Source: Skermanella mucosa (GTDB taxonomy: Bacteria > Pseudomonadota > Alphaproteobacteria > Azospirillales > Azospirillaceae). From it: a DNA stretch of 64,000 bases. Below the pieces are notes generated by a model. The model did not search any database and was not told where the DNA came from. It saw nothing but the letters and a program-made list of their open reading frames with translations. Below, one piece after another: positions 33,618 through 48,506 of this stretch. The stretch covers positions 5,912,501 to 5,976,500 of the forward strand of contig NZ_CP086106.1 of assembly GCF_016765655.2 (NCBI RefSeq), read 5' to 3'. Position numbers and translations under genes: made by a program. The stretch's first letter is position 1. Each line of letters opens with the position of its first letter.

Positions 33618-34538
33618 TCAGGTCTCCAATCCTTCCGGTATCTTCCACCCCCATTCCCGATATGCCTCGATGATCACCCTCGCCATGACCATCGCTTCGT
33701 GCGACCGGTCATCGGCCCGGCGGCTCATGATGATCGGCGACGTGATGGTCTGCTCGATCAGCTCGCGGTAGACCACATCGTCCCGGCGCAGGCGCTGCAC
33801 CGAAGTCGGGACGATGCAGATGCCGACCTCCGCCGCGACCAGGCCAATTGCCGTCTGAAGCTCGCGGGCCTCGTGGGCGATGTGCGGCTCCAGGCCGCGG
33901 TCGCGGAAGATCGAGATCACTTGATCGGCATAGCTCGGTCGCGGCACCCGGGGGTACAGGATCAGCGGCTCCCCGGCCAATTCCCCAAAGCTCAGCGGTC
34001 CCTCCCGCTGCAGAAGAGGATGGCTGAGCGGCAGGGCCACCACGAGCCGTTCCTCGCGAAGGACGTCCCGGCGCACCGCCGGATCGTCTAGGCGAATGCG
34101 GCCGAAACCGACATTGATCCGGCCATCCTTCAGGGCCGCGATCTGTTCCAGGCTGGCCATCTCGACGAGGCTGACGTCGAGCCCCGGCGTTTCCGCGCGG
34201 AAACGCCGGATCAGTTGCGGCAGGGCCGCGTAGATGGTCGAGGCGACGAAGCCGATGACGAACCGAGGTCGCTCCGCCTCGCGAAAGCGCCGCATCATCG
34301 TGCGCAGGTCGTCGAAGCGTTCAAGAACCAGGACGGCATGCTCGAAGAAAAGCCGGCCAGCCTCGGTCAGACGCAGCGGCCTGCTATCCCGGTCGAGAAG
34401 CATGATACCGACCTCATCCTCGAGCTGCTGGATCTGGCGGCTCAACGGCGGCTGGGCGATATGGAGCTTTTCGGCGGCCCGGGTGAAGTTCCGCTCCCGG
34501 GCGACGGTGACGAAGTAACGGAGATGGCGGATCTCCAT
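33618..34538 (-). CDS. LysR-type regulator of catechol/benzoate genes (CatR/BenM-like)
   Basis: 306 residues. The N-terminal winged HTH reads MEIRHLRYFVTVARERNFTRAAEKLHIAQPPLSRQIQQLE-like, and a LysR substrate-binding domain follows from about residue 90. It is divergent from catB with 102 bp between, the standard layout for CatR/BenM, which bind the shared region and activate on cis,cis-muconate or benzoate. Which inducer is used here cannot be read from the sequence. Confidence 0.9.
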   Translation of the reverse strand: MEIRHLRYFVTVARERNFTRAAEKLHIAQPPLSRQIQQLEDEVGIMLLDRDSRPLRLTEAGRLFFEHAVLVLERFDDLRTMMRRFREAERPRFVIGFVASTIYAALPQLIRRFRAETPGLDVSLVEMASLEQIAALKDGRINVGFGRIRLDDPAVRRDVLREERLVVALPLSHPLLQREGPLSFGELAGEPLILYPRVPRPSYADQVISIFRDRGLEPHIAHEARELQTAIGLVAAEVGICIVPTSVQRLRRDDVVYRELIEQTITSPIIMSRRADDRSHEAMVMARVIIEAYREWGWKIPEGLET

Positions 34539-34640: not shown

Positions 34641-35795
34641 ATGTTGCAGATCAAAGAGATCGAGACCTTTCTGGTCGATCTTCCGACCATCAGGCCTCAT
34701 GTTCTCTCGATGGCGACGATGTATCGCCAGACGATCGTGATCGTTCGCCTCCACTGCTCGGACGGTATCGTCGGCATCGGCGAAGGCACGACCATCGGCG
34801 GCCTGAGCTACGGCGAGGAAAGCCCGGAGAGCATCAAGCTCGCCATCGATACCTACTTCGAACCCGTTCTCAGGACTTGCGACCCCTCCCGGGTCGGCCA
34901 GACCATGGCCAGGATCGGGCGTGTCGTCATCGGCAACCATTTCGCCAAGTCGGCGGTGGAAACGGCGCTGCTGGACGCCATGGGCAAGCGCGTCGGCCTG
35001 CCGGTCTCCGAACTGCTGGGCGGACGCCACCGCGATGAGTTGCCGGTCGCCTGGACGCTGGCCAGCGGCGACACCGCCAAGGACATTGAAGAGGCCGAGC
35101 ATGTCCTGAGCCTGCGCCGCCACAACATCTTCAAGCTGAAGATCGGCAAGCGCGCGGTGGCCGATGACGTCTCTCATGTGGCATCGATCAAGAAGGCGCT
35201 CGGCGATAAAGCCAGCGTGCGGGTCGATGTCAACCAGGCCTGGGATGAGGCCAGTGCTTCCCGCGGGTTGGCGATGCTTGAAGATGCCGGTGTGGATCTG
35301 GTCGAGCAGCCGATCTCCAGGGCGAACCGCTCCGGGCTGGCGCGGCTTGCTGCCCGCTTCATCATCCCGATCATGGCCGACGAGTCCCTCCACGGACCGG
35401 ACGACGCCTTCGACCTCGCGATCCAGGCAGCGGCGGATGTTTTCGCGGTTAAGATCGCGCAGTCGGGCGGTTTGCAGGCTGCCGGACGGGTGGGGGCCAT
35501 CGCGGATGCCGCCAGCATCGGGCTTTATGGCGGCACGATGCTCGAGGCCGGCGTCGGCACGATCGCCTCGGCGCACCTGTTCGCGACGTTTCCCCAGCTT
35601 GCCTGGGGTACCGAACTCTTCGGACCACTTCTCCTCACCGAAGAGATTCTGACCGAGCCTTTGGGCTACGGCGATTTCGCCCTGAAGGTACCGGACAAGC
35701 CCGGCCTCGGCGTCGAGTTGGATCCGGACCGTATCGACTTCTTCCGCCGCGACCGGGCCGGCACACGGACGCACAGCTTTCCAGGAAAACTTTAA
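34641..35795 (+). CDS. catB: Muconate cycloisomerase
   Basis: 384 residues of the enolase superfamily, muconate lactonising group. Visible catalytic features: FKLKIGKR (KxK lysine pair), VRVDVNQAW (first metal Asp), LVEQPI (Glu), MADES (Asp) and FAVKIAQSGG (second lysine). It converts cis,cis-muconate to muconolactone. It is the first gene of the cat-ben operon. The start at 34641 is close after a weak GGGAGC purine stretch. Chloromuconate cycloisomerases are related, but the catC/catA neighbours favour catB. Confidence 0.94.
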   Translation: MLQIKEIETFLVDLPTIRPHVLSMATMYRQTIVIVRLHCSDGIVGIGEGTTIGGLSYGEESPESIKLAIDTYFEPVLRTCDPSRVGQTMARIGRVVIGNHFAKSAVETALLDAMGKRVGLPVSELLGGRHRDELPVAWTLASGDTAKDIEEAEHVLSLRRHNIFKLKIGKRAVADDVSHVASIKKALGDKASVRVDVNQAWDEASASRGLAMLEDAGVDLVEQPISRANRSGLARLAARFIIPIMADESLHGPDDAFDLAIQAAADVFAVKIAQSGGLQAAGRVGAIADAASIGLYGGTMLEAGVGTIASAHLFATFPQLAWGTELFGPLLLTEEILTEPLGYGDFALKVPDKPGLGVELDPDRIDFFRRDRAGTRTHSFPGKL

Positions 35796-35878
35796 AAATA
35801 CAGCGTTCTGGAGAAACAATAGAAGCGTATCTGCCCGGTGAAGTGTCAGCAGTCAACTATAACCATGGAGGAACAACA

Positions 35879-36169
35879 ATGCTGTTCCAAGTCGAAATGG
35901 AAGTCCGCCTGCCGCACGACATGGCACCCAGCGCGGCGGACGAGTTGAAGCGCGTCGAGCGCGAGCGGGCCCAGCAGCTGATGCGGGACGGCAAGTGGCG
36001 CCATCTCTGGCGCGTGGTCGGTCACTACTCGAACACCAGCGTCTTCGACGTCGAGAGCCACGACGAGCTGCACGCGATCCTCACGTCGCTGCCGCTCTTC
36101 CCCTTCATGAAGATGAAGGTCACGCCTCTGTGCCGCCACCCCTCGTCCATCCGTGGGGACGACACCTGA
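35879..36169 (+). CDS. catC: Muconolactone Delta-isomerase
   Basis: 96 residues, the usual length, beginning MLFQVEMEVRLPHDM and ending SIRGDDT. The family features RERAQQLMRDGKWRHLWRVVGHYSN and LPLFPFMKMKVTPLCRHPS are present. It isomerises muconolactone to 3-oxoadipate enol-lactone, the substrate of PcaD. ATG 35879 has ATGGAGG eleven bases upstream. It lies between catB and catA, the same order as in other proteobacteria. Confidence 0.96.
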   Translation: MLFQVEMEVRLPHDMAPSAADELKRVERERAQQLMRDGKWRHLWRVVGHYSNTSVFDVESHDELHAILTSLPLFPFMKMKVTPLCRHPSSIRGDDT

Positions 36170-36218
36170 GTTCGCAACCGGCGAGCAATCCAACAATCAA
36201 TGCCAAGGGAGAGAAACC

Positions 36219-37133
36219 ATGCAAAAGGAACAGATCAAGCAGCTCGTTGACCGCATCAGCGGCACCCAGATCAGGGAGCCCAACCCGCGGGTCAAGGCGA
36301 TCGTCGATCGCATGCTGCTCGACCTCTTCAACGTCATCGACGACTTCGATGTCCAGCCGGAAGAGTTCTGGTCGGCACTGAGCTACCTGACCGAGCTCGG
36401 ACAGCGCAACGAGTTCGCCCTGCTCTCGGCCGGTCTCGGCATCGATCACTATTTCGATGTCCGGCTCGACGAGAAGGAGGCGCGGGTCGGCATCGAGCCG
36501 GGCAGCACGCCGCGCACCATCGAGGGGCCGCTCTACGTCGCCGGCGCTCCGGTTTGCCAGGGCGAGGCCCGACTGGACGACGACACGGACACGGGCGAGA
36601 TCCTGTTCATGGACGGCCAGGTGACCGACACGCAAGGCGCGCCGATCGCCAGCGCGCTGGTCGAAGTCTGGCACGCCAACTCGCTCGGCAACTACTCATA
36701 CTTCGACAAGAGCCAGAGCGCCTTCAACCTGCGGCGCACCATCGTGACCGACGCCGAGGGACGCTACCGCTTCCGCAGCATCATGCCGTCCGGCTACGGC
36801 TGCCCGCCCGACGGTCCGACGCAGAAGCTCCTGAACCTGCTAGGCCGCCACGGCCAGCGCCCGGCGCACATCCATTTCTTCGTCTCGGCACCGGGATTTC
36901 GGCAGCTCACGACCCAGATCAACATCCAGGGCGACAAGTACATCCACGAGGACTTCGCTTTCGCCACGCGGGACGAACTGATCCCCGACGTGACGCACCA
37001 CACCGACGAAGCGGCACTCCGCGACAAGGGCGTGGATCGCCCGTTCGCCACGATCACCTTCAACTTCGCGTTGCCGCATGCCGTCGAAGGCGTGCCCAGT
37101 ACCCTGATCGACCGGCCCCGGGCCGCCGCCTGA
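36219..37133 (+). CDS. catA: Catechol 1,2-dioxygenase
   Basis: 304 residues. The N-terminal helical dimer domain is followed by the beta-sandwich with non-heme Fe(III) ligands: the tyrosines in NYSYFDKSQ and FRSIMPSGYG, and the histidines in RPAHIHFFVSAPG. It performs intradiol cleavage of catechol to cis,cis-muconate. ATG 36219 follows AAGGGAGAG. It lies 50 bp after catC. The length is typical of intradiol catechol dioxygenases and I see no sign of chlorocatechol-type shortening. Confidence 0.95.
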   Translation: MQKEQIKQLVDRISGTQIREPNPRVKAIVDRMLLDLFNVIDDFDVQPEEFWSALSYLTELGQRNEFALLSAGLGIDHYFDVRLDEKEARVGIEPGSTPRTIEGPLYVAGAPVCQGEARLDDDTDTGEILFMDGQVTDTQGAPIASALVEVWHANSLGNYSYFDKSQSAFNLRRTIVTDAEGRYRFRSIMPSGYGCPPDGPTQKLLNLLGRHGQRPAHIHFFVSAPGFRQLTTQINIQGDKYIHEDFAFATRDELIPDVTHHTDEAALRDKGVDRPFATITFNFALPHAVEGVPSTLIDRPRAAA

Positions 37134-37202
37134 CCCTTGCACTGCCCCTCCCGCTTGTCGGCGAGAGGGGCGGGACTAACAAAGATCAACGGAGGAAGCA
37201 CC

Positions 37203-38564
37203 ATGGATACCCATCTCATGGAACGGATCGACGCGGCCATCGTCGAGGACAAGGAGAACGGCCTCTACCGCGCCAAGCGCGACATCTTCACCGATCCCGA
37301 GCTGTTCGAGCTGGAGATGAAGTACATCTTCGAGGGCAACTGGATCTATCTTGCTCACGAAAGCCAGATCCCCAACAAGAACGACTACTACACGACCCAC
37401 ATGGGCCGGCAACCGATCTTCATCGCCCGCAACAAGAACGGCGAACTGAACGCCTTCATCAACGCCTGCAGCCACCGCGGCGCCATGCTGTGCCGCCACA
37501 AGCGAGCCAACAAGGCGACATATACCTGCCCGTTCCACGGTTGGACCTTCAACAACTCCGGCAAGCTGCTGAAAGTGAAGGACCCCGAGGGCGCCGGCTA
37601 CCCGAAGCAGTTCAACAAGGACGGCTCGCACGACCTGACCAAGGTGCCCCGGTTCGAGTCCTACCGCGGCTTCCTGTTCGGCAGCCTCAACCCAGACGTG
37701 CCGCCGCTGGCCGAGTACCTAGATGAATCGGCCAAGATCATCGACCTGATCGTGGACCAGTCGCCGGACGGGCTGGAAGTGTTGCGCGGCTCCTCGTCCT
37801 ACATCTATGACGGCAACTGGAAGCTCCAGACCGAGAACGGCGCCGACGGCTACCACGTCAGCGCGGTCCACTGGAATTATGCGGCGACCACCAGCCGGCG
37901 CAAGACGGCGGTCAACCCGGACATGACCCGCGCCATGGATGCCGGCGGCTGGGCCAAGCAGGGCGGCGGCTTCTACTCGTTCGAGCACGGCCACCTGCTG
38001 CTGTGGACCCGCTGGTCTAATCCCGAGGACCGGCCGCTCTACGAGCGCCGTGACGAGCTGGTCGCCCAATACGGGCAGGCGCGGGCGGACTGGATGATCG
38101 GCATCTCGCGCAACCTGTGCCTCTACCCCAACGTCTACCTGATGGATCAGTTCGGCTCGCAGATCCGCACGTACCGGCCGATCAGCGTCGATAAGACGGA
38201 AGTCACCATCTACTGCATCGCGCCGAAGAACGAGAGCGCCTCGGCCCGGGCCCAGCGTATCCGGCAGTACGAGGATTTCTTCAACGCCAGCGGCATGGCG
38301 ACCCCGGACGACCTGGAGGAATTCCGCTCCTGTCAGATCGGCTACATGGGCAAGGCGGCCCCCTGGAACGACCTGAGCCGCGGCGCCGAGCACTGGGTTC
38401 ACGGCGCCGATGAGAACGCCAAGCAGATTGGCCTGCGGCCGCTGATGAGCGGCAAGCTGACCGAGGACGAGGGTTTGTTCGTCGTCCAGCACCAGTACTG
38501 GCAAGACACCATGCGGCGCGCCCTTGAGGCCGAAGCCGCTGAAAAGAACGCAAAGAAGTCGTAA
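37203..38564 (+). CDS. benA: Benzoate 1,2-dioxygenase large subunit
   Basis: 453 residues. The Rieske [2Fe-2S] site is CSHRGAML and TCPFHGW. The mononuclear iron facial triad is in [12 protein letters not shown] (two His, with the Asp ligand nearby). It hydroxylates benzoate to the 1,2-dihydrodiol with BenB and the reductase BenC. ATG 37203 is preceded by ACGGAGGAAG. It follows catA after 69 bp in the same operon. Toluate/2-halobenzoate dioxygenases share this domain layout; the benzoate call rests on the BenD, BenK and BenE neighbours. Confidence 0.93.
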
Positions 38565-38575
38565 GGGAGGCCGAC

Positions 38576-39067
38576 ATGACGATCACGTACGAAGACCTGC
38601 TGGCCTTCCTTTACCGCGAAGCCCGCCTGCTCGACGACAAGCAGTGGGAGGAGTGGCTTCAGCTCTACGCACCGGACGCCGAGTTCTGGATGCCGGCCTG
38701 GGACGACGACGGCACCCTGGTGACCGACCCGCAGCGCGAGATCTCGCTGATCTGGTACGGCAACCGCGGCGGCCTGGAGGACCGGGTATTCCGCATCAAG
38801 ACCGAGCGATCCAGCGCCACGTCACTGCCGGAGCCGCGGACCTCGCACAACATCACCAATGTCGAGATCCTGGAGCAGCAGGATGGCGTCTGCAAGCTGC
38901 GCTTCAACTGGTTCACCCTGAACTTCAGGTACAAACTGACCGACACATATTTCGGAACCTCGTTCTACACGCTTGACACTTCGGGCGGGCGGCCGCTGAT
39001 CAAGAACAAGAAGGTCGTGCTGAAGAACGACTACATCCATCACGTCATCGACATCTATCACATCTGA
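38576..39067 (+). CDS. benB: Benzoate 1,2-dioxygenase small subunit
   Basis: 163 residues of the ring-hydroxylating dioxygenase beta subunit family (NTF2-like fold): YEDLLAFLYREARLLDDKQWEEWL, TSHNITNVEIL and the C-terminal KKVVLKNDYIHHVIDIYHI. It is structural, holding the alpha3beta3 hexamer together. It starts 11 bp after benA with a good AAGGGAGG site. Confidence 0.95.
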   Translation: MTITYEDLLAFLYREARLLDDKQWEEWLQLYAPDAEFWMPAWDDDGTLVTDPQREISLIWYGNRGGLEDRVFRIKTERSSATSLPEPRTSHNITNVEILEQQDGVCKLRFNWFTLNFRYKLTDTYFGTSFYTLDTSGGRPLIKNKKVVLKNDYIHHVIDIYHI

Positions 39068-39134
39068 TCGGGCATATCCGATTGGCCACATCTGATCAGC
39101 ATTTTTTCGGATGCCGTGATCAGGGAGGATGACC

Positions 39135-40154
39135 ATGAGCTTCAACATCGCGCTCAACTTCGAGGACGGGGTCACCCGCTTCATCGAGAGCAACCCCGGC
39201 GAGACGGTGGCGGACGCCGCCTACCGCCAGGGCATCAACATTCCGCTGGACTGCCGCGACGGCGCCTGCGGCACCTGCAAGAGCTTCTGCGAGTCCGGGC
39301 GCTACGACGGCGGCTCCTACATCGAGGACGCCCTGACCGACGAGGAGGCGGAAGAGGGCTACTGCCTGACCTGCCAGATGAAGCCACAGACCGATCTGGT
39401 CCTTCGCATCGACGCCGCCTCAGAGGTGTGCAAGACCCAGGTCACGGACTTCCAGGCCGAAGTCATCAGCGTTGAGCAACTGTCCGACAGCACGATCAGC
39501 CTGTCGCTCAAGGTCGAGGACGCCGGCCGGCTGCATTTCCTGCCGGGCCAGTATGTCAAGATACTGGTGCCGGGCGAGCTGGATAGCCGTTCCTACTCGT
39601 TCAGCTCACCGCCGGGCTCGGATGTCGCGACCTTCCTGATCCGCAACGTGCCGGGCGGGATGATGAGCGGCTACCTGACCGGGCGGGCCAAGCCGGGCGA
39701 CAAGCTGACACTCAAGGGACCCTTGGGAAGCTTCTATCTCCGCGACACGAAGCGCCCGGTGCTGATGCTGGCGGGCGGCACCGGGCTGGCGCCGTTCCTG
39801 TCCATGCTGGGCAGGGTGGCGGAGACCGGCTGCGAGCAGCCGATCCACCTGGTCTACGGCGTCACCACCGACGGCGACCTGGTCGAGGTCGAGACGATCG
39901 CCGAGTACGTCAAGAAGATCCCGAACCTCACCTTCGCCACCTGCGTCGCCGACAAGGGCAGCAACCATCCGCTCAAGGGCTACGTCACCCATCACCTGGA
40001 GGCCAAGCACCTGAATGCCGGCGATGTGGACGTCTATCTCTGCGGTCCGCCGCCGATGGTCGAGGCGGTCCGGACCTTCTTCCGGGAGCAGGGCGTAAAC
40101 CCGGTGAATTTCCACTACGAGAAGTTCACGCCGAGCGAAGGGGGTGCGTCATGA
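39135..40154 (+). CDS. benC: Benzoate 1,2-dioxygenase reductase
   Basis: 339 residues. The N-terminal plant-type [2Fe-2S] ferredoxin domain has CRDGACGTC and a later YCLTC cysteine pair. It is followed by an FAD domain (LDSRSYSFSSPPG) and an NAD-binding domain (MLAGGTGLAPFLSML, VYLCGPPPMVEAV). It carries electrons from NADH to BenAB. An ATG at 39129 directly touches the ribosome site, so the ATG at 39135, six bases from AGGGAGG, is the more likely start. It overlaps benD by four bases. Confidence 0.95.
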   Translation: MSFNIALNFEDGVTRFIESNPGETVADAAYRQGINIPLDCRDGACGTCKSFCESGRYDGGSYIEDALTDEEAEEGYCLTCQMKPQTDLVLRIDAASEVCKTQVTDFQAEVISVEQLSDSTISLSLKVEDAGRLHFLPGQYVKILVPGELDSRSYSFSSPPGSDVATFLIRNVPGGMMSGYLTGRAKPGDKLTLKGPLGSFYLRDTKRPVLMLAGGTGLAPFLSMLGRVAETGCEQPIHLVYGVTTDGDLVEVETIAEYVKKIPNLTFATCVADKGSNHPLKGYVTHHLEAKHLNAGDVDVYLCGPPPMVEAVRTFFREQGVNPVNFHYEKFTPSEGGAS

Positions 40155-40960
40155 CCGGCACAGGGCAAGTCAGGGGGCGTTCCGGCGGGCGTTTCCAGGG
40201 CAAGGTGATGGTCGTGACGGGTGCCGCACAGGGCATCGGTCGCACCGTGGCCCTGGGGGCCGCCCGCGAGGGCGCCTCCGTGGTGCTGGTGGATCGGGCG
40301 GAGATCGTCCACGAGGTCCGGGCGGAACTGGAGGGTCTCGGTGCGCCGGCGCTGTCGGTGACGACTGACCTGGAGAACTACTCCGGTGCCGACAGCGCCA
40401 TGGGCCAGGCGCTGGACCGGTTCGGCCGGATCGACATCCTGGTCAACAATGTCGGCGGCACGATCTGGACCAAGCCCTATGGCGAGTACCGCGAGCCGGA
40501 GATCGAGGCCGAGGTCCGGCGCTCCCTGTTCCCGACGCTGTGGTGTTGCCGGGCGGTGCTTCCCGCCCTGCTCAAGCAGGGTGGCGGTGTGATCGTCAAC
40601 GTCTCCTCGGTCGCCACCCGCGGCGTCAACCGGGTGCCCTATGCGGCGGCCAAGGGCGGCGTCAACGCGCTCACCGCCTCGCTCGCCTTCGAGTATGCCG
40701 AGCATGGCATTAGGGTCGTCGGCACGGCCCCCGGCGGCACCGAGGCTCCGCCCCGGCGCATCCCGCGCAACCCGACAGTCCAGGACGAGCGCGAGAAGGT
40801 CTGGTACCAGGGCATCGTCGATCAGACGATCTCATCCAGCCTGATGAAGCGCTACGGCACGCTGGAGGAGCAGGCGGCGCCCATCTTGTTCCTGGCCTCC
40901 GACGAGGCCTCGTACATCACCGGCACAACCCTGCCGGTCGCCGGCGGCGATCTCGGCTGA
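40151..40960 (+). CDS. benD: Benzoate dihydrodiol dehydrogenase (SDR family)
   Basis: 269 residues. The NAD site TGAAQGIGR, the NNVGG motif, the catalytic serine region NVSSVATRG and YAAAKGG (YxxxK) are all present, and the C-terminus TLPVAGGDLG fits. It oxidises 1,6-dihydroxycyclohexadiene carboxylate to catechol with loss of CO2. Start codon overlap with the end of benC suggests translational coupling. The short N-terminal extension (TGTGQVRGRSG) is atypical but harmless. Confidence 0.93.
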   Translation: MTGTGQVRGRSGGRFQGKVMVVTGAAQGIGRTVALGAAREGASVVLVDRAEIVHEVRAELEGLGAPALSVTTDLENYSGADSAMGQALDRFGRIDILVNNVGGTIWTKPYGEYREPEIEAEVRRSLFPTLWCCRAVLPALLKQGGGVIVNVSSVATRGVNRVPYAAAKGGVNALTASLAFEYAEHGIRVVGTAPGGTEAPPRRIPRNPTVQDEREKVWYQGIVDQTISSSLMKRYGTLEEQAAPILFLASDEASYITGTTLPVAGGDLG

Positions 40961-41163
40961 AGAAGCTGATCCGACTGTGACCTAAGGGGGCTCTCCAGCC
41001 ACACGGATAAGAAGATCTACTAGAATAATAAAAACAAATATTGGATGGCGTCTGAGAATTCATCACGCCAGACAACGTCCAGGGTGAACAGAACCTTGGC
41101 GCACCGCCCGAGGTGCGCTCGCCCCCAAACTCACGACAACAAACACTTGCAGGGAGAAGGGAT

Positions 41164-42543
41164 ATGGCGCCAACACGCCCCATTGACGTCCAGGACTTCA
41201 TGAACCACCACAAGCTGTCGTCCTACCAGATCAGGATCATCGCACTCTGCTTCCTGATCGTGGCGATCGACGGCTTCGACACCGCCGCAATCGGGTTCAT
41301 TGCCCCGGCTCTCAGAGCTGAATGGGGTGTCACGGCGGCCCAGTTGGCGCCGCTGTTCGGCGCCGGGCTGTTCGGCCTGATGGTTGGAGCCTTCATCTTT
41401 GGCCCACTGGCCGACAAGATCGGGCGCAAGTACTCGCTCATCCTCACCGTGATCTTCTTCGGCGGCGCCAGCCTGGCTTCGGCCTGGTCCACCTCGATCA
41501 CCGAGCTGACCATCCTGCGCTTCCTGACCGGCATGGGCCTGGGCGGTGCGATGCCCAACGCGATCACGCTGACCTCGGAGTTCTGCCCCGAGAAGCGTCG
41601 CTCGTTCCTGACCACCCTGATGTTCTGCGGCTTCACGCTGGGATCGGCATTCGGAGGCCTCGCCGCCGCCCAGCTGGTGGCGGGATATGGCTGGGAGTCG
41701 GTCCTGCTGATCGGCGGCATCCTGCCGCTGGCGCTGGCTCCGGTCCTGTGGCTGACGCTGCCTGAGTCAGTGCGCTTCCTGGTGCTGAAGAATGCGCCCG
41801 CCGAGCAGATCACGGCGGTGCTGCACAGGATAGCCCCCGAGGCCGATCTCACTGGTGTCGCCTATACCGGCGTTACCAAGCCCAAGGGCTCACCGGTGCG
41901 GCAGCTGTTCCAGCCGGGCCTGGTGACTGGCACTCTGCTGATCTGGCTCACCTTCTTCATGAGCCTGCTGGTCTTCTATCTCCTGGCGAGCTGGCTGCCG
42001 ACCGTGATCAGCAGCGCCGGCATGACCCTCAAGGAAGCAGCACTGATGTCGATGATGCTGCAGCTCGGCGGCACCGCGGGGGCCCTACTGATCGGCGCCC
42101 TGATGGACCGGGTCAACCCGCACACCGTGCTCGGCTCCTTCTACGCCCTGGCTGCCCTGTTCATCGCGTTGATCGGAAGCTCGACGGCGTCGCCGTGGTT
42201 GCTGTCCTTTGCCGTCTTCGGGGCGGGGTTCTGCCTGGCGGGCTCGCAGGTCGGGGTCAATGCGCTGGCGGCCGGATACTACCCGACGGCCAGCCGCGCC
42301 ACCGGTGTTGCCTGGGCGAACGCGGTCGGCCGCAGCGGCTCGGTGCTGGGCTCGATGTTCGGCGGCGCCGTCCTGGCCAGCGGCCTGGGCCTGCCCGTTG
42401 CCTTCGCGATCGTCGGCATCCCGGTCATCATCGCCGGCCTGTCCATGTTCCTCAAGGGCCAGCTGGCGCCGCAGCCGGTGCACCACACGGCACCAGGGGC
42501 TTCCGATGGCCTCGACACCGGGAAAGTCGCTTTGCAGCATTAA
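41164..42543 (+). CDS. benK: Aromatic acid:H+ symporter, MFS (BenK-like)
   Basis: 459 residues with twelve predicted membrane helices. MFS features of the aromatic acid symporter family are present: DGFDTAAIGFIAPAL in helix 1, GPLADKIGRKYSLIL in the loop 2-3, and LGSAFGGLAAA. It imports benzoate with protons across the inner membrane. ATG 41164 follows GGAGAAGGGA. It is separated from benD by 203 bp with no recognisable terminator, and a GC hairpin follows it at 42565. Confidence 0.88.
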   Translation: MAPTRPIDVQDFMNHHKLSSYQIRIIALCFLIVAIDGFDTAAIGFIAPALRAEWGVTAAQLAPLFGAGLFGLMVGAFIFGPLADKIGRKYSLILTVIFFGGASLASAWSTSITELTILRFLTGMGLGGAMPNAITLTSEFCPEKRRSFLTTLMFCGFTLGSAFGGLAAAQLVAGYGWESVLLIGGILPLALAPVLWLTLPESVRFLVLKNAPAEQITAVLHRIAPEADLTGVAYTGVTKPKGSPVRQLFQPGLVTGTLLIWLTFFMSLLVFYLLASWLPTVISSAGMTLKEAALMSMMLQLGGTAGALLIGALMDRVNPHTVLGSFYALAALFIALIGSSTASPWLLSFAVFGAGFCLAGSQVGVNALAAGYYPTASRATGVAWANAVGRSGSVLGSMFGGAVLASGLGLPVAFAIVGIPVIIAGLSMFLKGQLAPQPVHHTAPGASDGLDTGKVALQH

Positions 42544-42564: not shown

Positions 42565-42587
42565 CCGGGCACCTTCAAGGTGCCCGG
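42565..42587 (+). other. Intercistronic hairpin after benK
   Basis: CCGGGCACCTT and AAGGTGCCCGG form a perfect 11-bp palindrome around one central C. No T-run follows, so it is more likely an RNA processing or stability element than a terminator. Confidence 0.6.
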
Positions 42588-42624: not shown

Positions 42625-43452
42625 ATGAGGCCAGCCGTCATCACCGTCGCGATTACCGGATCGGTTCCGCGCAAGAAAGATAATCCCGCCTTGCCGGTGA
42701 CCGTGTCCGAGCAGATCGAGTCAACCCACGAGGCCTTCGAGGCAGGCGCCTCGCTCGTTCATATCCACGTCCGTAATCCGGATGAAAGCTCTTCTTCGGA
42801 CCCTGCCCTGTTCGCCCAAGTGCAGGATGGGATCTGCAAGCACTGCCCCGGCATGATCGTGCAATTCTCGACAGGCGGCCGGGGTCGCGATCAGGCGGCA
42901 CGCGGCAGTGCGCTTTACCTGAAGCCCGACATGGCGTCGCTCTCGACCGGCTCGGTCAATTTCCCGACCATCGTGTACGAGAACTCGCCGGCCCTGGTGG
43001 TCGATCTGGCGACCCGCATGAAGGAGCATGCCATCCTGCCGGAGATCGAGGTCTTCGACCTGTCGCATCTCCATGGTGCTCGCCGGCTGGTCGATGCCGG
43101 GCTGATGAGTGAGCGTCCGCACGTCCAGTTCGTCATGGGCGTCAAGAACGCCATGCCGGCGGAGGAACATCTGCTGGACATCCTGCTCGCCGAACTGAAG
43201 CGCGTCCTTCCCAAGGCAACATGGACTGCCGCCGGCATCGGGCGCCATCAGAGCCAAGTCATGCGCTGGGTGCTGGAGCGCGGCGGTGATGGCGTCCGCA
43301 CCGGTCTGGAAGACAACATCCGCATCACCAAGGACCGGCTGGCCGGCAGCAATGCCGAACTGGTCAGGATGGCCGTCGATCTCTGCGCCGAGTACGATGC
43401 CCGCCCGGCGACAGTCGCTGAAGCGCGGTCGATGCTGGGACTCGCAGCCTGA
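42625..43452 (+). CDS. BKACE (DUF849) beta-keto acid cleavage enzyme
   Basis: 275 residues, a TIM-barrel with the BKACE signature: ITVAITGSVPRKKDNPALP, then ASLVHIHVRNPDESSS (metal-binding His-x-His), EIEVFDLSHLHGARRL (Glu/Asp/His), and GGDGVRTGLEDNI at the C-terminus. BKACEs convert a beta-keto acid plus acetyl-CoA to acetoacetate plus a CoA ester. Substrate varies by subgroup. In this cluster the obvious substrate is 3-oxoadipate, which would give succinyl-CoA and acetoacetate. That assignment is inference; the founding member cleaves 3-keto-5-aminohexanoate. ATG 42625 has GGAGGAAG upstream. Confidence 0.88.
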   Translation: MRPAVITVAITGSVPRKKDNPALPVTVSEQIESTHEAFEAGASLVHIHVRNPDESSSSDPALFAQVQDGICKHCPGMIVQFSTGGRGRDQAARGSALYLKPDMASLSTGSVNFPTIVYENSPALVVDLATRMKEHAILPEIEVFDLSHLHGARRLVDAGLMSERPHVQFVMGVKNAMPAEEHLLDILLAELKRVLPKATWTAAGIGRHQSQVMRWVLERGGDGVRTGLEDNIRITKDRLAGSNAELVRMAVDLCAEYDARPATVAEARSMLGLAA

Positions 43453-43478
43453 CGGTGAGGTTGATAGCTGCGGATGAA

Positions 43479-43513
43479 GGGCAGGTGAGTTCGGAATCCG
43501 ACCCCACCTGCCC
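43479..43513 (+). other. Intercistronic hairpin between BKACE gene and scoA
   Basis: GGGCAGGTG (43479-43487) pairs with CACCTGCCC (43505-43513) over nine bases, enclosing a second smaller stem TCGGA/TCCGA. It lacks a T-run. With the hairpin at 42565 it brackets the BKACE gene. Confidence 0.6.
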
Positions 43514-43554
43514 TATCCTCCCAACCAAAAACGTAATCACGGGAGAAACCGGGA

Positions 43555-44256
43555 ATGAAAAAAGTATGTCCTGACGCGGCCTCGGCACTGGCCGGGTTCC
43601 TGAAAGACGACATGACGATCATGGCCGGCGGCTTCGGCCTGTGCGGCATTCCGGAAACTCTGATCGAGGCGATCCGCGATTCTGGGGTGAAGGGCCTGAC
43701 CGTGATCTCCAACAACGCGGGCATCGACAATGTCGGCCTGGGCATGCTGCTGGAAACCCGCCAGATCGCCAAAATGATCTCGTCCTATGTCGGCGAGAAC
43801 AAGACCTTCGCCAGGCAGTACCTGGCCGGCGAACTGGAGATCGAGTTCAATCCCCAGGGCACCCTGGCCGAGCGCATCCGCGCAGGCGGCGCCGGCATCC
43901 CCGCCTTCTTCACCAGGACCGGCGTCGGCACCTCGGTCGCGGACGGCAAGGAAGTCCGCGAGTTCGACGGCGAGCAGTACGTGATGGAGACCGGGCTGGT
44001 CGCCGATCTGGCCGTGGTCCATGCCTGGAAGGGCGACACCGAAGGCAACCTCGTCTACCGCAAGACCGCGCGCAACTTCAACCCAATGATGGCGACCGCG
44101 GGCAAGGTCACCGTGGCCGAGGTCGAGCACCTCGTGCAGCCCGGCGAGATCGATCCGGATCACATCATCACCCCCGGCATCTTCGTCAAGCGCATCGTCC
44201 ACGTGCCCGATGCCGAGAAGCGCATCGAGCAGCGCACCGTCCGCAAGCGCGCCTGA
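43555..44256 (+). CDS. 3-oxoacid CoA-transferase subunit A (SCOT-like)
   Basis: 233 residues of CoA-transferase family I, alpha subunit: AGGFGLCGIPETLIEA, VISNNAGIDNVGLG, SSYVGENKTFARQYL, RAGGAGIPAFFTRTGVGT and GNLVYRKTARNFNPM. The SYVGENKxFxxQYLAGELEIEFxPQGT pattern is closer to ScoA (succinyl-CoA:acetoacetate transferase) than to PcaI, from memory of both families. It would activate acetoacetate or 3-oxoadipate with succinyl-CoA. It pairs with the next gene, 39 bp downstream. Confidence 0.88.
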   Translation: MKKVCPDAASALAGFLKDDMTIMAGGFGLCGIPETLIEAIRDSGVKGLTVISNNAGIDNVGLGMLLETRQIAKMISSYVGENKTFARQYLAGELEIEFNPQGTLAERIRAGGAGIPAFFTRTGVGTSVADGKEVREFDGEQYVMETGLVADLAVVHAWKGDTEGNLVYRKTARNFNPMMATAGKVTVAEVEHLVQPGEIDPDHIITPGIFVKRIVHVPDAEKRIEQRTVRKRA

Positions 44257-44295
44257 AGAGCCGAGCAACTGAAAATCAAGAAGAGGATAGAGATC

Positions 44296-44937
44296 ATGGC
44301 ATGGACACGTGAGGAAATGGCGGCGCGCGCTGCCAAGGAACTGCAGGACGGCTTCTATGTAAACTTAGGCATCGGCATCCCGACGCTGGTCGCCAACTAC
44401 ATCCCCGAAGGGATCGAGGTGACGCTGCAGAGCGAGAACGGCATGCTCGGCATGGGCCCGTTCCCCTACGAGGGGGAGGAGGACCCCGACCTGATCAACG
44501 CCGGCAAGCAGACGATCACGGAACTGTCGAAGACCAGCTACTTCAGCAGCGCGGACAGCTTCGGCATGATCCGCGGCGGCCATATCGACCTGTCGATCCT
44601 GGGCGCCATGCAGGTGGCGGCCAACGGCGACCTCGCGAACTGGATGATCCCGGGCAAGATGGTCAAGGGCATGGGCGGCGCCATGGACCTGGTCGCCGGG
44701 GTCAAGAAGGTGGTCGTGGTGATGGAGCACGCCTCCAAGGACGGCGAGCCGAAGATCCTGAACAAGTGCACCCTACCGCTGACCGGGGCCGGCGTGGTCG
44801 ATCTGATCATCACCGACATGGGCGTATTCCAGGTCAATGAGACCGGCGGCGGCCTGACCCTGATCGAGATCGCTCCCGGCGTCACCGTGGACGACATCAA
44901 GGCCAGGACCGAGGCGGAGTTCAAGGTCGTGGTCTGA
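44296..44937 (+). CDS. 3-oxoacid CoA-transferase subunit B (SCOT-like)
   Basis: 213 residues, beta subunit: [15 protein letters not shown], the catalytic glutamate in [12 protein letters not shown], and [18 protein letters not shown]. The active-site glutamate forms the CoA thioester intermediate. Like its partner, it looks ScoB-like rather than clearly PcaJ. ATG 44296 follows AAGAGGATAG. Substrate cannot be decided from sequence alone. Confidence 0.88.
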
Positions 44938-45029
44938 CACCCGGTAGTTTTTTGAGAAGGCAGACCAACGGATCATCCAAGGTCTGTCCTTGCCGATATC
45001 CAGCAAATGCACCCGGGAAAGGTGGTTCC

Positions 45030-45824
45030 ATGCCTTCGATCACCGTCAACGACGTCGATCTGCACTATGCGCTGAGTGGTCCCGAGGGAGCGCCCGTCGT
45101 GGCCTTTTCCAACTCGATCGGCACCACGCTGGAAATGTGGGATGCGCAGGCACAAGCGCTGTCCGGGCACTACCGCTGCCTGCGCTACGACACCCGCGGC
45201 CATGGCCGGTCCACGGCCGTTGACCGTTCCACCACCATCAACGATCTCGCCGATGATCTGGCCGGTCTGCTCGATGCTCTCGGTCTGCCCAAGGCGCACA
45301 TCGTCGGCCTGTCGCTCGGTGGCATGACGGCGCAGGCCTTCACGCTGGGCTATCCGGAACGGACCACAAGTCTCACCCTGATGGCGACCGCGGCTTACCT
45401 GCCGCCGGCCGAGGCCTGGGAACAGCGTGCCGTGACGGTGTGCCGGGATGGCATGGCGGCGATCAGCGATGCCGTCATTGCCCGCTGGTTCACGCCTCCA
45501 TACCCGCAGGCCTTCCCGCAAAAGGTGGCATCGGTGCGCGAGCGCTTCCTGCACATGGATCCGGGCGGCTACGCGGCCTGCTGCCGGGTCATCCGGGACA
45601 TGGACCTGCGGCAGGATATCGGGCTGATCACCACACCGACCCTTATCATCGCCGGGGCCGATGACCTGGCAACGCCGGTCGCACTGATGGAGGATATCCG
45701 CGCGCGCATCGCTGGCTCGGAACTTGTGATCCTGCCGGATGCGGCGCACATCCTGGCGATCCAGCAGGCCGACCGTGTCAACCGGCACCTGCTCGGCTTC
45801 CTCGGTGCCGCCGTGTCAGCCTGA
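45030..45824 (+). CDS. pcaD: 3-oxoadipate enol-lactonase
   Basis: 264 residues, alpha/beta hydrolase. The nucleophile elbow is GLSLGGM, with the acid in GADDLATP and the histidine in LPDAAHILAIQQ; FSNSIGTTLEMWD and RYDTRGHGRS are typical of PcaD. It hydrolyses the enol-lactone made by CatC to 3-oxoadipate. ATG 45030 follows GGGAAAGG. It completes the benzoate-to-3-oxoadipate route inside this cluster. Confidence 0.92.
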   Translation: MPSITVNDVDLHYALSGPEGAPVVAFSNSIGTTLEMWDAQAQALSGHYRCLRYDTRGHGRSTAVDRSTTINDLADDLAGLLDALGLPKAHIVGLSLGGMTAQAFTLGYPERTTSLTLMATAAYLPPAEAWEQRAVTVCRDGMAAISDAVIARWFTPPYPQAFPQKVASVRERFLHMDPGGYAACCRVIRDMDLRQDIGLITTPTLIIAGADDLATPVALMEDIRARIAGSELVILPDAAHILAIQQADRVNRHLLGFLGAAVSA

Positions 45825-45864
45825 TGCTTCCCGCGCCAGCGCGAACTCCTGCCAGAGGATGGTC

Positions 45865-47073
45865 ATGCAAAAATCCGCCGCCGGTACCGAAAATACGGAA
45901 ACTCCCGGAAAACCGACGCTGAGCCGGGACTGGTCGGTGTCCGCCATCGCGGCCGGGTTTCTCGCCGTGCTGATCTCATACTCAGGCCCGGCGGTGATCT
46001 TCTTCCAGGCGGCGGACGTCGCCCATGTGTCCGGCGACATGATTGCCTCCTGGATATGGGGCATCTCGATCGGAGCCGGAGTGTCGGGCATCCTCCTGAG
46101 CTGGGCCTTGAGGGTGCCGGTCATCACGGCGTGGTCGGCTCCGGGCACGGCATTGCTGATCACACTGTTTCCCGCCATCACGCTCAATCAGGCGGTCGGC
46201 GCCTATATCACCGCCGCGGTGATCATCTTCCTGATCGGCATCTCCGGCTCCTTCGACAGGATCATGCGGCGTATTCCGCCGGGCATCGCCGCGGGCATGA
46301 TGGCCGGCATTCTGTTCCAGTTCGGGGTCAACGCCTTCAAGTCGGCGACCACCATGCCGACGCTGACATTTGGCATGGTGGTCGCCTATGTCGTGTTCCG
46401 CCGCCTGGTGCCGCGCTACTCCATCGTTCTGGTGCTCGCATCCGGCGTCATCCTGGCAATGCTGCTGGGCACCACCAACATCGGGGTCCTCGAACTGCAG
46501 CTGACGACACCGGTGTTCATCAATCCGGAATGGGCCTGGGGCACCACTCTGAGCCTCGCCCTTCCTCTGGTGCTGGTGAGTTTGACGGGGCAGTTTCTGC
46601 CCGGCATGGCGATCCTGCACCTTTCCGGCTACCGCACGCCGGCGCGGCCGATCATCACCGCCACCAGCCTGGCATCACTTGGAGTGGCGCTTTTCGGCGG
46701 CATCACCATCGTCGTTGCGGCCATCACCGCCGCGCTGTGTACAGGGAGGGATGCCCATGAGGACCCTGCCAGGCGCTATGTCGCGGGGATCGCCAATGGC
46801 GTGTTCTACCTGATCGGCGGGACCTTCGCCGGCACGATCGTGATGGTCTTCACCGCACTGCCCAGAGAGTTCATAGCCGTCCTCGCCGGGCTCGCTCTCA
46901 CCGGCGCGATCGCCGCCAACTTCACCGCGGTGGTGCGGGAGGAGGACCATCGCGAGGCCTCCGTCATCACCTTCCTGGCAACGGCATCGGGCATGAGCTT
47001 TCTGGGCCTAGGTTCCGCTTTCTGGGGGGTAGTAATCGGCGGTTTTGCTTACTTGGTGCTCAATAAAGCTTAG
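45865..47073 (+). CDS. benE: Benzoate:H+ symporter BenE
   Basis: 402 residues of the BenE family with about eleven to twelve helices: SAIAAGFLAVLISYSGPAVIFFQAA, ITAWSAPGTALL, PPGIAAGMMAGILFQFGVNAF and TGQFLPGMAILHLSGYR. It is a second inner-membrane benzoate importer beside BenK, a pairing common in benzoate degraders. ATG 45865, nine bases after AGAGG, is preferred over the ATG six bases upstream. Confidence 0.92.
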   Translation: MQKSAAGTENTETPGKPTLSRDWSVSAIAAGFLAVLISYSGPAVIFFQAADVAHVSGDMIASWIWGISIGAGVSGILLSWALRVPVITAWSAPGTALLITLFPAITLNQAVGAYITAAVIIFLIGISGSFDRIMRRIPPGIAAGMMAGILFQFGVNAFKSATTMPTLTFGMVVAYVVFRRLVPRYSIVLVLASGVILAMLLGTTNIGVLELQLTTPVFINPEWAWGTTLSLALPLVLVSLTGQFLPGMAILHLSGYRTPARPIITATSLASLGVALFGGITIVVAAITAALCTGRDAHEDPARRYVAGIANGVFYLIGGTFAGTIVMVFTALPREFIAVLAGLALTGAIAANFTAVVREEDHREASVITFLATASGMSFLGLGSAFWGVVIGGFAYLVLNKA

Positions 47074-47171: not shown

Positions 47172-48506
47172 ATGTACTGCGCGCAATATATCTCGACCTT
47201 CGCCCTGGCGGCGGCAGTGTTGCTCGTCTGCCCGCACGCCGGAAAGGCGGATTCCGTCTCCCTGGAGGCGGCTGTCAGGGACAAGACCGCCTCGATAGAG
47301 GGAAAGCTGATCGCTTGGCGCCGGGATATCCACCAGCATCCCGAACTCGGGGACCAGGAGACCAGGACCTCAGGTATCGTAGCCGATCACCTGCGGAGCC
47401 TCGGGCTTGATGTGCGGACCGGCGTCGCCCGGACCGGCGTGGTCGCCGTCCTGAAAGGGGCAAAGCCCGGCCCGACAGTGTCCCTGCGCGCCGACATGGA
47501 TGCCCTGCCCGTCAAGGAGCCCGAAGGACTGCCTTTCGCCTCCCGGGCCAGGTCCCGATACCTGGGCAAGGAGGTCGATGTGATGCACGCCTGCGGGCAC
47601 GACGCCCATACCGCCATGCTGATGGCGACGGCCGAGGTGCTTGCAAGTCTCAAAGACCAGCTTCCCGGCACCGTGCAGTTCATCTTCCAGCCGGCCGAGG
47701 AGGGCTCGAGCCTGCATCCACCTGGGTCGGACCAGATCTCGGGCGCCAAGCTGATGGTAAAGGAAGGGATATTCGCTGACACCAGACCGGATGCGGTTTT
47801 CGGTCTGCATGTCATGCTCGGAAAGTCAGGCGAGATCGCCTACCGCGCCGGTGCAGTCCTGGCCAGCAGCGACAATCTCGAAATCAAGGTGACCGGCAAA
47901 CAGGGCCATGGCGGCATGCCCTGGCAGACGATAGACCCGATCACGACCTCGGCGCAGATCGTCAACGGCCTGCAGACCATCGTCAGCCGGAAGGTCGATC
48001 TGACGACTTCCCCTGCCGTGGTCACGATCGGCACCATCAATGGAGGGACCCGCGCCAATATCGTGCCTGAGACGGTGGCGATGACGGGCACGATCCGGAC
48101 CTACGACGAAGCGATCCGCGATCAGGTGCACCGCGACATCACCACTGTCGCTGAAAAGATCGCCGAGAGCGCCGGCGCCACGGCGGAAGTGTCGATCAGC
48201 CGCGGTTACGACACCACCGTCAACAACGATGAGCTGACCGGGCGCATGCTGCCGGCGCTGGAACGTGCGGCCGATGGCAGGATCCGTCGCTCCCTGCCGG
48301 TTGGCGCGTCGGAGGATTTCTCGGTGTATGCGAGCGAGGCGCCCGGCCTCTTCGTCTTCCTGGGAGTAACGCCGGACGGTCAGGATCCCACAAAGGCCGC
48401 TCCCAACCACAGCCCCAACTTCTTCGTCGATGAGGCAGCGCTCGTGGTCGGCGCCCGGACTATGGCCTCACTGGCCGTCAACTATCTTGCATCACCGACC
48501 AAGTGA
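47172..48506 (+). CDS. Secreted M20-family amidohydrolase (hippurate hydrolase-like)
   Basis: 444 residues with a signal peptide (ALAAAVLLVCPHAGKA, cleavage near KAD). Peptidase M20 features: WRRDIHQHPELGDQE, LRADMDALPVKE, metal ligands in HACGHDAH and FQPAEEGS, and the dimerisation-domain segment GKQGHGGMPWQTIDP. Relatives hydrolyse N-acyl amino acids, hippurate or indole-acetyl conjugates. The export signal puts it in the periplasm. Placement directly after benE suggests a benzoyl conjugate such as hippurate as substrate; that is inference. GAGGAGG precedes the ATG. Confidence 0.85.
   Translation: MYCAQYISTFALAAAVLLVCPHAGKADSVSLEAAVRDKTASIEGKLIAWRRDIHQHPELGDQETRTSGIVADHLRSLGLDVRTGVARTGVVAVLKGAKPGPTVSLRADMDALPVKEPEGLPFASRARSRYLGKEVDVMHACGHDAHTAMLMATAEVLASLKDQLPGTVQFIFQPAEEGSSLHPPGSDQISGAKLMVKEGIFADTRPDAVFGLHVMLGKSGEIAYRAGAVLASSDNLEIKVTGKQGHGGMPWQTIDPITTSAQIVNGLQTIVSRKVDLTTSPAVVTIGTINGGTRANIVPETVAMTGTIRTYDEAIRDQVHRDITTVAEKIAESAGATAEVSISRGYDTTVNNDELTGRMLPALERAADGRIRRSLPVGASEDFSVYASEAPGLFVFLGVTPDGQDPTKAAPNHSPNFFVDEAALVVGARTMASLAVNYLASPTK

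Follow-up and report, generated by a model that had tools for sequence, protein, structure and literature searches.

The window analysed here is a 64-kb stretch of contig 1 of the Skermanella mucosa genome (7.84 Mb), and it carries a benzoate degradation cluster in which a BKACE (DUF849) gene and a CoA-transferase gene pair stand upstream of the gene for 3-oxoadipate enol-lactonase. The genes follow one another in the order catB, catC, catA, benA, benB, benC, benD, an aromatic-acid transporter gene, BKACE, scoA, scoB, pcaD and benE, and a LysR-type regulator gene is divergent from them. In a profile search, every enzyme gene of the ben/cat cluster and benE exceed an NCBIfam cut-off, and the transporter and LysR genes match their nearest families below cut-off. 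The central part of the cluster lies on the forward strand and consists of BKACE (42625..43452), predicted to encode a 3-oxoadipate:acetyl-CoA cleavage enzyme, scoA (43555..44256) and scoB (44296..44937), predicted to encode the two subunits A and B of a succinyl-CoA:acetoacetate CoA-transferase (SCOT), and pcaD (45030..45824, with an ATG start at 45030; TIGR02427, 278 bits, cut-off 255.9). A search of the genome with the PcaF models places no match inside the 64 kb; all eight matches lie elsewhere.

This cluster is quite likely an ortho-cleavage (β-ketoadipate) benzoate operon with a BKACE-type ending, which would be completed by SCOT and by an acetyl-CoA acetyltransferase from elsewhere in the genome. 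The BKACE, SCOT and thiolase reactions themselves are established chemistry, and we infer their occurrence in S. mucosa as follows. BKACE would convert 3-oxoadipate and acetyl-CoA to succinyl-CoA and acetoacetate by moving the acetyl end of the former to the latter, as its family and gene context predict. Judging from similarity and a tree, the adjacent SCOT-type transferase would convert acetoacetate and succinyl-CoA to acetoacetyl-CoA and succinate. An acetyl-CoA acetyltransferase encoded elsewhere on the chromosome, where one thiolase exceeds the cut-off of NF005404 (acetyl-CoA C-acetyltransferase), may then convert acetoacetyl-CoA and CoA to two molecules of acetyl-CoA. The sum would be 3-oxoadipate + CoA → succinate + acetyl-CoA, the net reaction of PcaIJ plus PcaF. 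The canonical PcaIJ–PcaF ending thus has the same start and, by stoichiometry, the same net products, and the S. mucosa cluster differs from it by the lack of pcaF, by the SCOT-like transferase and by the predicted intermediates acetoacetate and acetoacetyl-CoA. We judge the alternative ending to be real and coherent, and probably also functional, and the SCOT partner suggests a fate for acetoacetate. We lean, by a small degree, towards a fuller reading as well, in which BKACE, SCOT and acetoacetyl-CoA thiolase would form a self-balanced, stoichiometrically equivalent replacement of PcaIJ–PcaF, the succinyl-CoA from BKACE would supply the CoA for the acetoacetate released in the same reaction, and the SCOT genes would have been recruited several times independently.

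The window BKACE matches PF05853 with 299 bits (cut-off 24.8, E 3.9e-89) and the model NF053568, named '3-oxoadipate:acetyl-CoA acetyltransferase', with 465.4 bits (cut-off 350). Its second-best model is that of Kce, the lysine fermentation enzyme, with 246 bits, under the cut-off of 382. In a class sample of 289 genomes, drawn evenly across the class of the window, the NF053568 cut-off is exceeded in 19 genomes, and the scores form two sets with a gap from 439 to 195 bits. We aligned 85 relatives, comprising the window protein, the best 80 loci of at least 592 relatives and four plasmid loci, against Kce (2y7d). The zinc and catalytic residues H46, H48, R225, E229 and D230 are identical in 85/85 sequences and match H46, H48, R226, E230 and D231, which we take to be the numbering and roles of the zinc ligands and catalytic residues in Kce. 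The position of Glu14 in Kce is occupied by Val in 75 relatives, Leu in seven, Ile in two and Gln in one. Arg86, directly past the Ser-Thr-Gly-Gly motif, is present in all 85 relatives and also in 3no5; at the corresponding position Kce has Ala, and four further BKACEs of S. mucosa have Ala, Gly, Gly and Val. Arg86 may bind the distal carboxylate.

The transferase pair matches TIGR02429 (ScoA, 267 bits, cut-off 128.5) and TIGR02428 (ScoB, 340 bits, cut-off 243.6). It is 63% identical to 3cdk and 59% identical to 3rrl, both solved SCOTs, whereas its identity to four pcaF-adjacent pairs of the PcaIJ type is 47–49%. A tree was built from 16 pairs, no biochemically characterized PcaIJ among them; in it, a branch with 100/100 support sets apart a PcaIJ-type clade made up of the pcaF-adjacent pairs of Rhizobium, Roseomonas and two Acetobacter and of a pair from Pseudosulfitobacter. 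The window pair, 3cdk and 3rrl lie outside this clade, among relations that are poorly resolved. A search of the genome for a long CatIJ-type transferase found none, the only match being one of 24% to ScoA of the cluster itself. These results agree with the first-pass annotation, which had read the locus as a complete benABCD, catABC and pcaD set without a thiolase in the cluster, with BKACE directly followed by a CoA-transferase pair more similar to ScoAB than to PcaIJ. It had also named a transferase within PcaIJ combined with a DUF849 subgroup of another substrate as a finding that would speak against its proposal; neither the tree position nor the NF053568 match bears this out.

The genome contains a second scoAB pair, with 92% identity to the cluster copy for ScoA and 95% for ScoB, in a stretch with a DNA polymerase I-like gene and no gene recognized as aromatic. 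A search for the polymerase gene next to the further copies found none in these short loci. A ScoA of at least 89% identity is encoded outside the ben cluster in 5/5 Skermanella genomes searched, and one of them (G002) carries this ScoA copy but gives no BKACE match at E 1e-60. The cluster scoAB thus closely duplicates a SCOT-type pair that all five genomes have outside the cluster. A tree of the copies excluded the pair of a Beijerinckiaceae metagenome-assembled genome (L093), whose scoB is truncated where the contig stops. In this tree the Skermanella copies fall into a single group with weak internal resolution, and the cluster copy may descend from the other copy or the reverse.

The order of the marker genes from catB to pcaD, including BKACE and scoAB, recurs in three further clusters, namely that of S. 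rosea (L170), one of the two of S. aerolata (L171) and one on a plasmid of Azospirillum brasilense (L127); this gene arrangement is therefore not due to chance. Each of the five ben clusters found in Skermanella, like that of Azospirillum, has BKACE in this position. SCOT-type genes also follow pcaD–pcaC in Microvirga (L077) and pcaD in the Beijerinckiaceae genome, where the contig end cuts the locus. Since the SCOT-type genes sit at different positions in these clusters, they appear to have been recruited repeatedly into BKACE clusters. Within the cluster, scoAB would be helpful but dispensable.

Near relatives of the window BKACE lie in several other contexts. On plasmid pSR-3 of S. rosea (L111), one is accompanied by pcaB, pcaD, pcaC, pcaH and pcaG, and on pSR-2 of the same species another is accompanied by genes for an intradiol dioxygenase and a maleylacetate reductase of the hydroxyquinol type; further near relatives are found beside quinate/shikimate-type genes or beside ben/cat genes. 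Among the best 80 loci, 32 have at least one aromatic-pathway marker within 10 kb; for 33 of these 80 loci, a flank is shorter than 9 kb. One Acetobacter locus (L042), the only one on which this profile was run, has a 3-hydroxybutyrate dehydrogenase gene near BKACE (337 bits, cut-off 307), with homologues in two further loci (L046 and L050); a gene of this type at these loci fits acetoacetate as the BKACE product. In the class sample, the β subunit of protocatechuate dioxygenase scores above cut-off in 55/289 genomes. Within 20 kb of that gene, we counted by hand a BKACE above the NF053568 cut-off in six of the 55 and a thiolase above the TIGR02430 cut-off in five, with no genome in both groups. 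The BKACE ending is thus about as common beside pca genes in this sample as the textbook thiolase, and a pathway tool requiring PcaF would call a BKACE-ended pathway incomplete. Catechol dioxygenase is found in 2/289 genomes and is unusable as a class-wide marker.

Some further observations concern BKACE loci of other kinds. The three Acetobacter loci mentioned above also carry a TIGR00366-like transporter gene. The S. mucosa genome has a second BKACE above the NF053568 cut-off (L027:5937-7582, on C4), which is 82% identical to the window protein and lies directly before a TerC-family-like gene. On pSR-3, the five pca genes stand between BKACE and a TerC-like gene, and a search of the S. mucosa genome for PcaH at E 1e-40 gave no match among the nine of 19 candidates that were scored; the C4 locus has the appearance of a former cluster from which the ring-cleavage genes were lost. 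A different BKACE subfamily adjoins SDR-like and intradiol-dioxygenase-like genes in three genomes (L026, L207 and L208). The latter genes are 41–45% identical to the intradiol dioxygenase gene of pSR-2, perhaps marking a further aromatic route that ends in BKACE.

A number of results weigh against a BKACE–SCOT ending, and they are best considered together with the explanations that they would favour. The canonical ending could be encoded by scattered genes, with the cluster transferase acting as PcaIJ, a distant PcaF-like thiolase cleaving 3-oxoadipyl-CoA and BKACE serving as an accessory; we regard this as unlikely. The PcaF-model search gives eight matched stretches in the genome, and the best thiolase, C1:2009039-2010229, reaches 667.6 bits on NF006001 (3-oxoadipyl-CoA thiolase), above the cut-off of 622, so a genome free of any PcaF-like thiolase is ruled out. 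The IclR-type regulator nearest to this gene matches PcaR/PcaU/PobR, albeit below cut-off (136 of 285 bits). The same thiolase remains below the cut-off of TIGR02430 (563 of 597 bits) and lies about 3.9 Mb from the cluster. Its neighbours, two acyl-CoA dehydrogenase-like genes and one acyl-CoA ligase-like gene, none of them over a specific cut-off, suggest a locus for acyl- or dicarboxyl-CoA breakdown. As for the transferase, a Tardibacter pair located between catB and pcaF also falls outside the PcaIJ-type clade. SCOT-type pairs may therefore include 3-oxoadipate transferases, and because of this pair and the lack of a characterized PcaIJ in the tree, the substrate of a transferase cannot be read from its place in the tree. 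A role as PcaIJ is nevertheless disfavoured by the 93% identity of the cluster pair to the pair that five Skermanella genomes hold elsewhere, one of them without a BKACE match. In addition, BKACE is directly followed by pcaD, without scoAB, in S. aerolata (L172) and S. stibiiresistens (L173), that is, in two of the five Skermanella clusters. These two orthologous clusters count against SCOT as a constant partner and are also hard to square with an essential scoAB and an accessory BKACE. The earlier proposal that BKACE and SCOT replace PcaF hence stands with qualifications. The NF053568 match and the position of the transferase outside the PcaIJ-type clade support it, and the distant NF006001 thiolase and the two clusters without scoAB do not; the genome search for pcaF, which had been suggested as a check, is likewise divided between the two thiolase models.

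Both endings might also operate side by side, in which case BKACE would offer a flexible path, or one for overflow, towards acetoacetate and polyhydroxybutyrate; we consider this slightly less probable than the scattered canonical ending. Five of the 80 loci, from Acetobacter (L042 and L063) and Microvirga (L079, L086 and L088), have, besides BKACE, both a transferase pair and a gene for a PcaF-like thiolase that is 66–68% identical to an annotated pcaF product. Because these five loci hold all three, BKACE is not always a substitute for transferase and PcaF; the Microvirga pairs share 60–64% identity with the CatIJ-type pair from A. lipoferum. Coexistence is further favoured by an acetoacetyl-CoA reductase gene (TIGR01829, 357 bits, cut-off 302) that adjoins a thiolase gene in S. 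mucosa, and by the 12 of the 19 NF053568-positive genomes in the class sample that also have a thiolase above the TIGR02430 cut-off. That cut-off is also exceeded in 91 of the 270 other genomes (both counts are hand tallies), and genome-level presence of PcaF was rejected as an uninformative test. The S. mucosa cluster itself has no thiolase nearby and its sole PcaF-like candidate is far off, both of which disfavour parallel endings; moreover, a thiolase gene within a phenylacetate cluster also bears a pcaF annotation, so genome-wide presence says little on benzoate. That BKACE acts on another β-keto acid and owes its cluster position to coincidence seems to us very improbable, even though 48 of the 80 best loci, including a Bradyrhizobium group and a biotin carboxylase group, have no aromatic-pathway marker within 10 kb. 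The latter group (L089, L091, L095, L101, L105 and L106) has biotin carboxylase- and biotin carrier protein-like genes and no aromatic genes, and since its member L105 passes the NF053568 cut-off, this model may cover more than its name suggests. We also compared the neighbourhoods of the 20 loci that comprise all those above the NF053568 cut-off in the class sample (one, L183, on a 7.8-kb contig) with 27 controls, namely 23 next-best loci, a non-random choice, and four other BKACEs of the S. mucosa genome. Using a marker set fixed beforehand, a ring-cleavage marker lies within 8 kb in 7/20 loci versus 4/27 controls, a difference that is not significant (p = 0.16); a narrower set (pcaHG or catA), picked after seeing the data, gives 7/20 versus 0/27 (p = 0.001). 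A coincidental position is at odds with three observations: the 64-row clade of the window BKACE does not include the biotin carboxylase group, the place of BKACE is kept in the five Skermanella ben clusters and in Azospirillum, and near relatives occur in several routes to 3-oxoadipate.

The BKACE ending has already been published; what is added here, as a modest extension, is the SCOT partner together with its origin and recurrence. The passages of a 2019 study (PMC6449761) on the catechol regulon of Ralstonia eutropha H16 suggest a COG3246 protein as a β-ketoadipate cleavage enzyme. It resembles the S. mucosa BKACE in its predicted reaction in catechol metabolism and is co-regulated with catBCD; unlike the S. 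mucosa cluster, it is described in those passages with no mention of a SCOT partner. In Methylobacterium, a BKACE gene (kce) is reported in pca clusters that lack pcaIJ and pcaF (PMC8963497, 2022; PMC12379598, 2025), and pcaHGBL and kce together with van genes allowed M. extorquens to grow on protocatechuate (PMC12379598). These clusters likewise have BKACE in place of pcaIJ/pcaF, with succinyl-CoA and acetoacetate as the proposed products. They differ in belonging to the protocatechuate branch, and the sections of the two papers that describe them name no partner within the cluster that would activate acetoacetate. β-Ketoadipate is listed among the substrates of DUF849 groups in the relevant part of PMC4922564, and the sequence of BKACE, acetoacetate activation and thiolase is proposed for deoxyribonate in that of PMC6365646. 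According to the cluster description in PMC10470551 (2023), the phloroglucinol cluster of Clostridium scatologenes encodes a BKACE-family enzyme, an acetoacetate CoA-transferase and a thiolase, the same three kinds of enzyme, and differs by its triacetate substrate and anaerobic pathway. Our literature search found no pairing of a β-ketoadipate BKACE with SCOT, which is weak evidence given that it covered the best-ranked papers and few subscription ones.

The remaining genes of the cluster are as follows. The regulator gene (33618..34538, reverse strand) has the Pfam LysR domains and is CatM/BenM-like, with 269 bits for BenM and 259 bits for CatM, both far under the cut-offs. All others lie on the forward strand. 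The cat genes encode muconate cycloisomerase (catB, 34641..35795; TIGR02534, 556 bits, cut-off 335), muconolactone isomerase (catC, 35876..36169; TIGR03221, 145 bits, cut-off 130.6) and catechol 1,2-dioxygenase (catA, 36153..37133; TIGR02439, 451 bits, cut-off 392). They are followed by benA (37137..38564; TIGR03229, 871 bits, cut-off 781), benB (38576..39067; TIGR03232, 284 bits, cut-off 226), benC (39129..40154; NF040810, 553 bits, cut-off 430) and benD (40151..40960; NF040811, 449 bits, cut-off 380); the real starts of catA and benA are probably more internal. The transporter gene upstream of BKACE (41113..42543) encodes a PcaK/BenK-like aromatic-acid transporter of the MFS family, with 432 bits for PcaK and 396 bits for TIGR00895, both under cut-off, and benE at the end of the cluster (45859..47073) encodes a benzoate/H+ symporter (TIGR00843, 508 bits, cut-off 203).

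Promoter and terminator scans gave no excess over shuffled sequences. Strong hairpins are present at 42565-42587, in the gap before BKACE, and at 43479-43513, in the gap that separates BKACE from scoA, with whole-gap z values of −1.75 and −2.75, respectively. No terminator was called at either of them, and they possibly reflect mRNA processing or an insertion scar. Past benE, the window contains an M20-family amidohydrolase gene (47172-48506), homologues of which lie near BKACE in S. aerolata (L031) and at locus L075; as a guess, this enzyme might free benzoate from hippurate-like conjugates.

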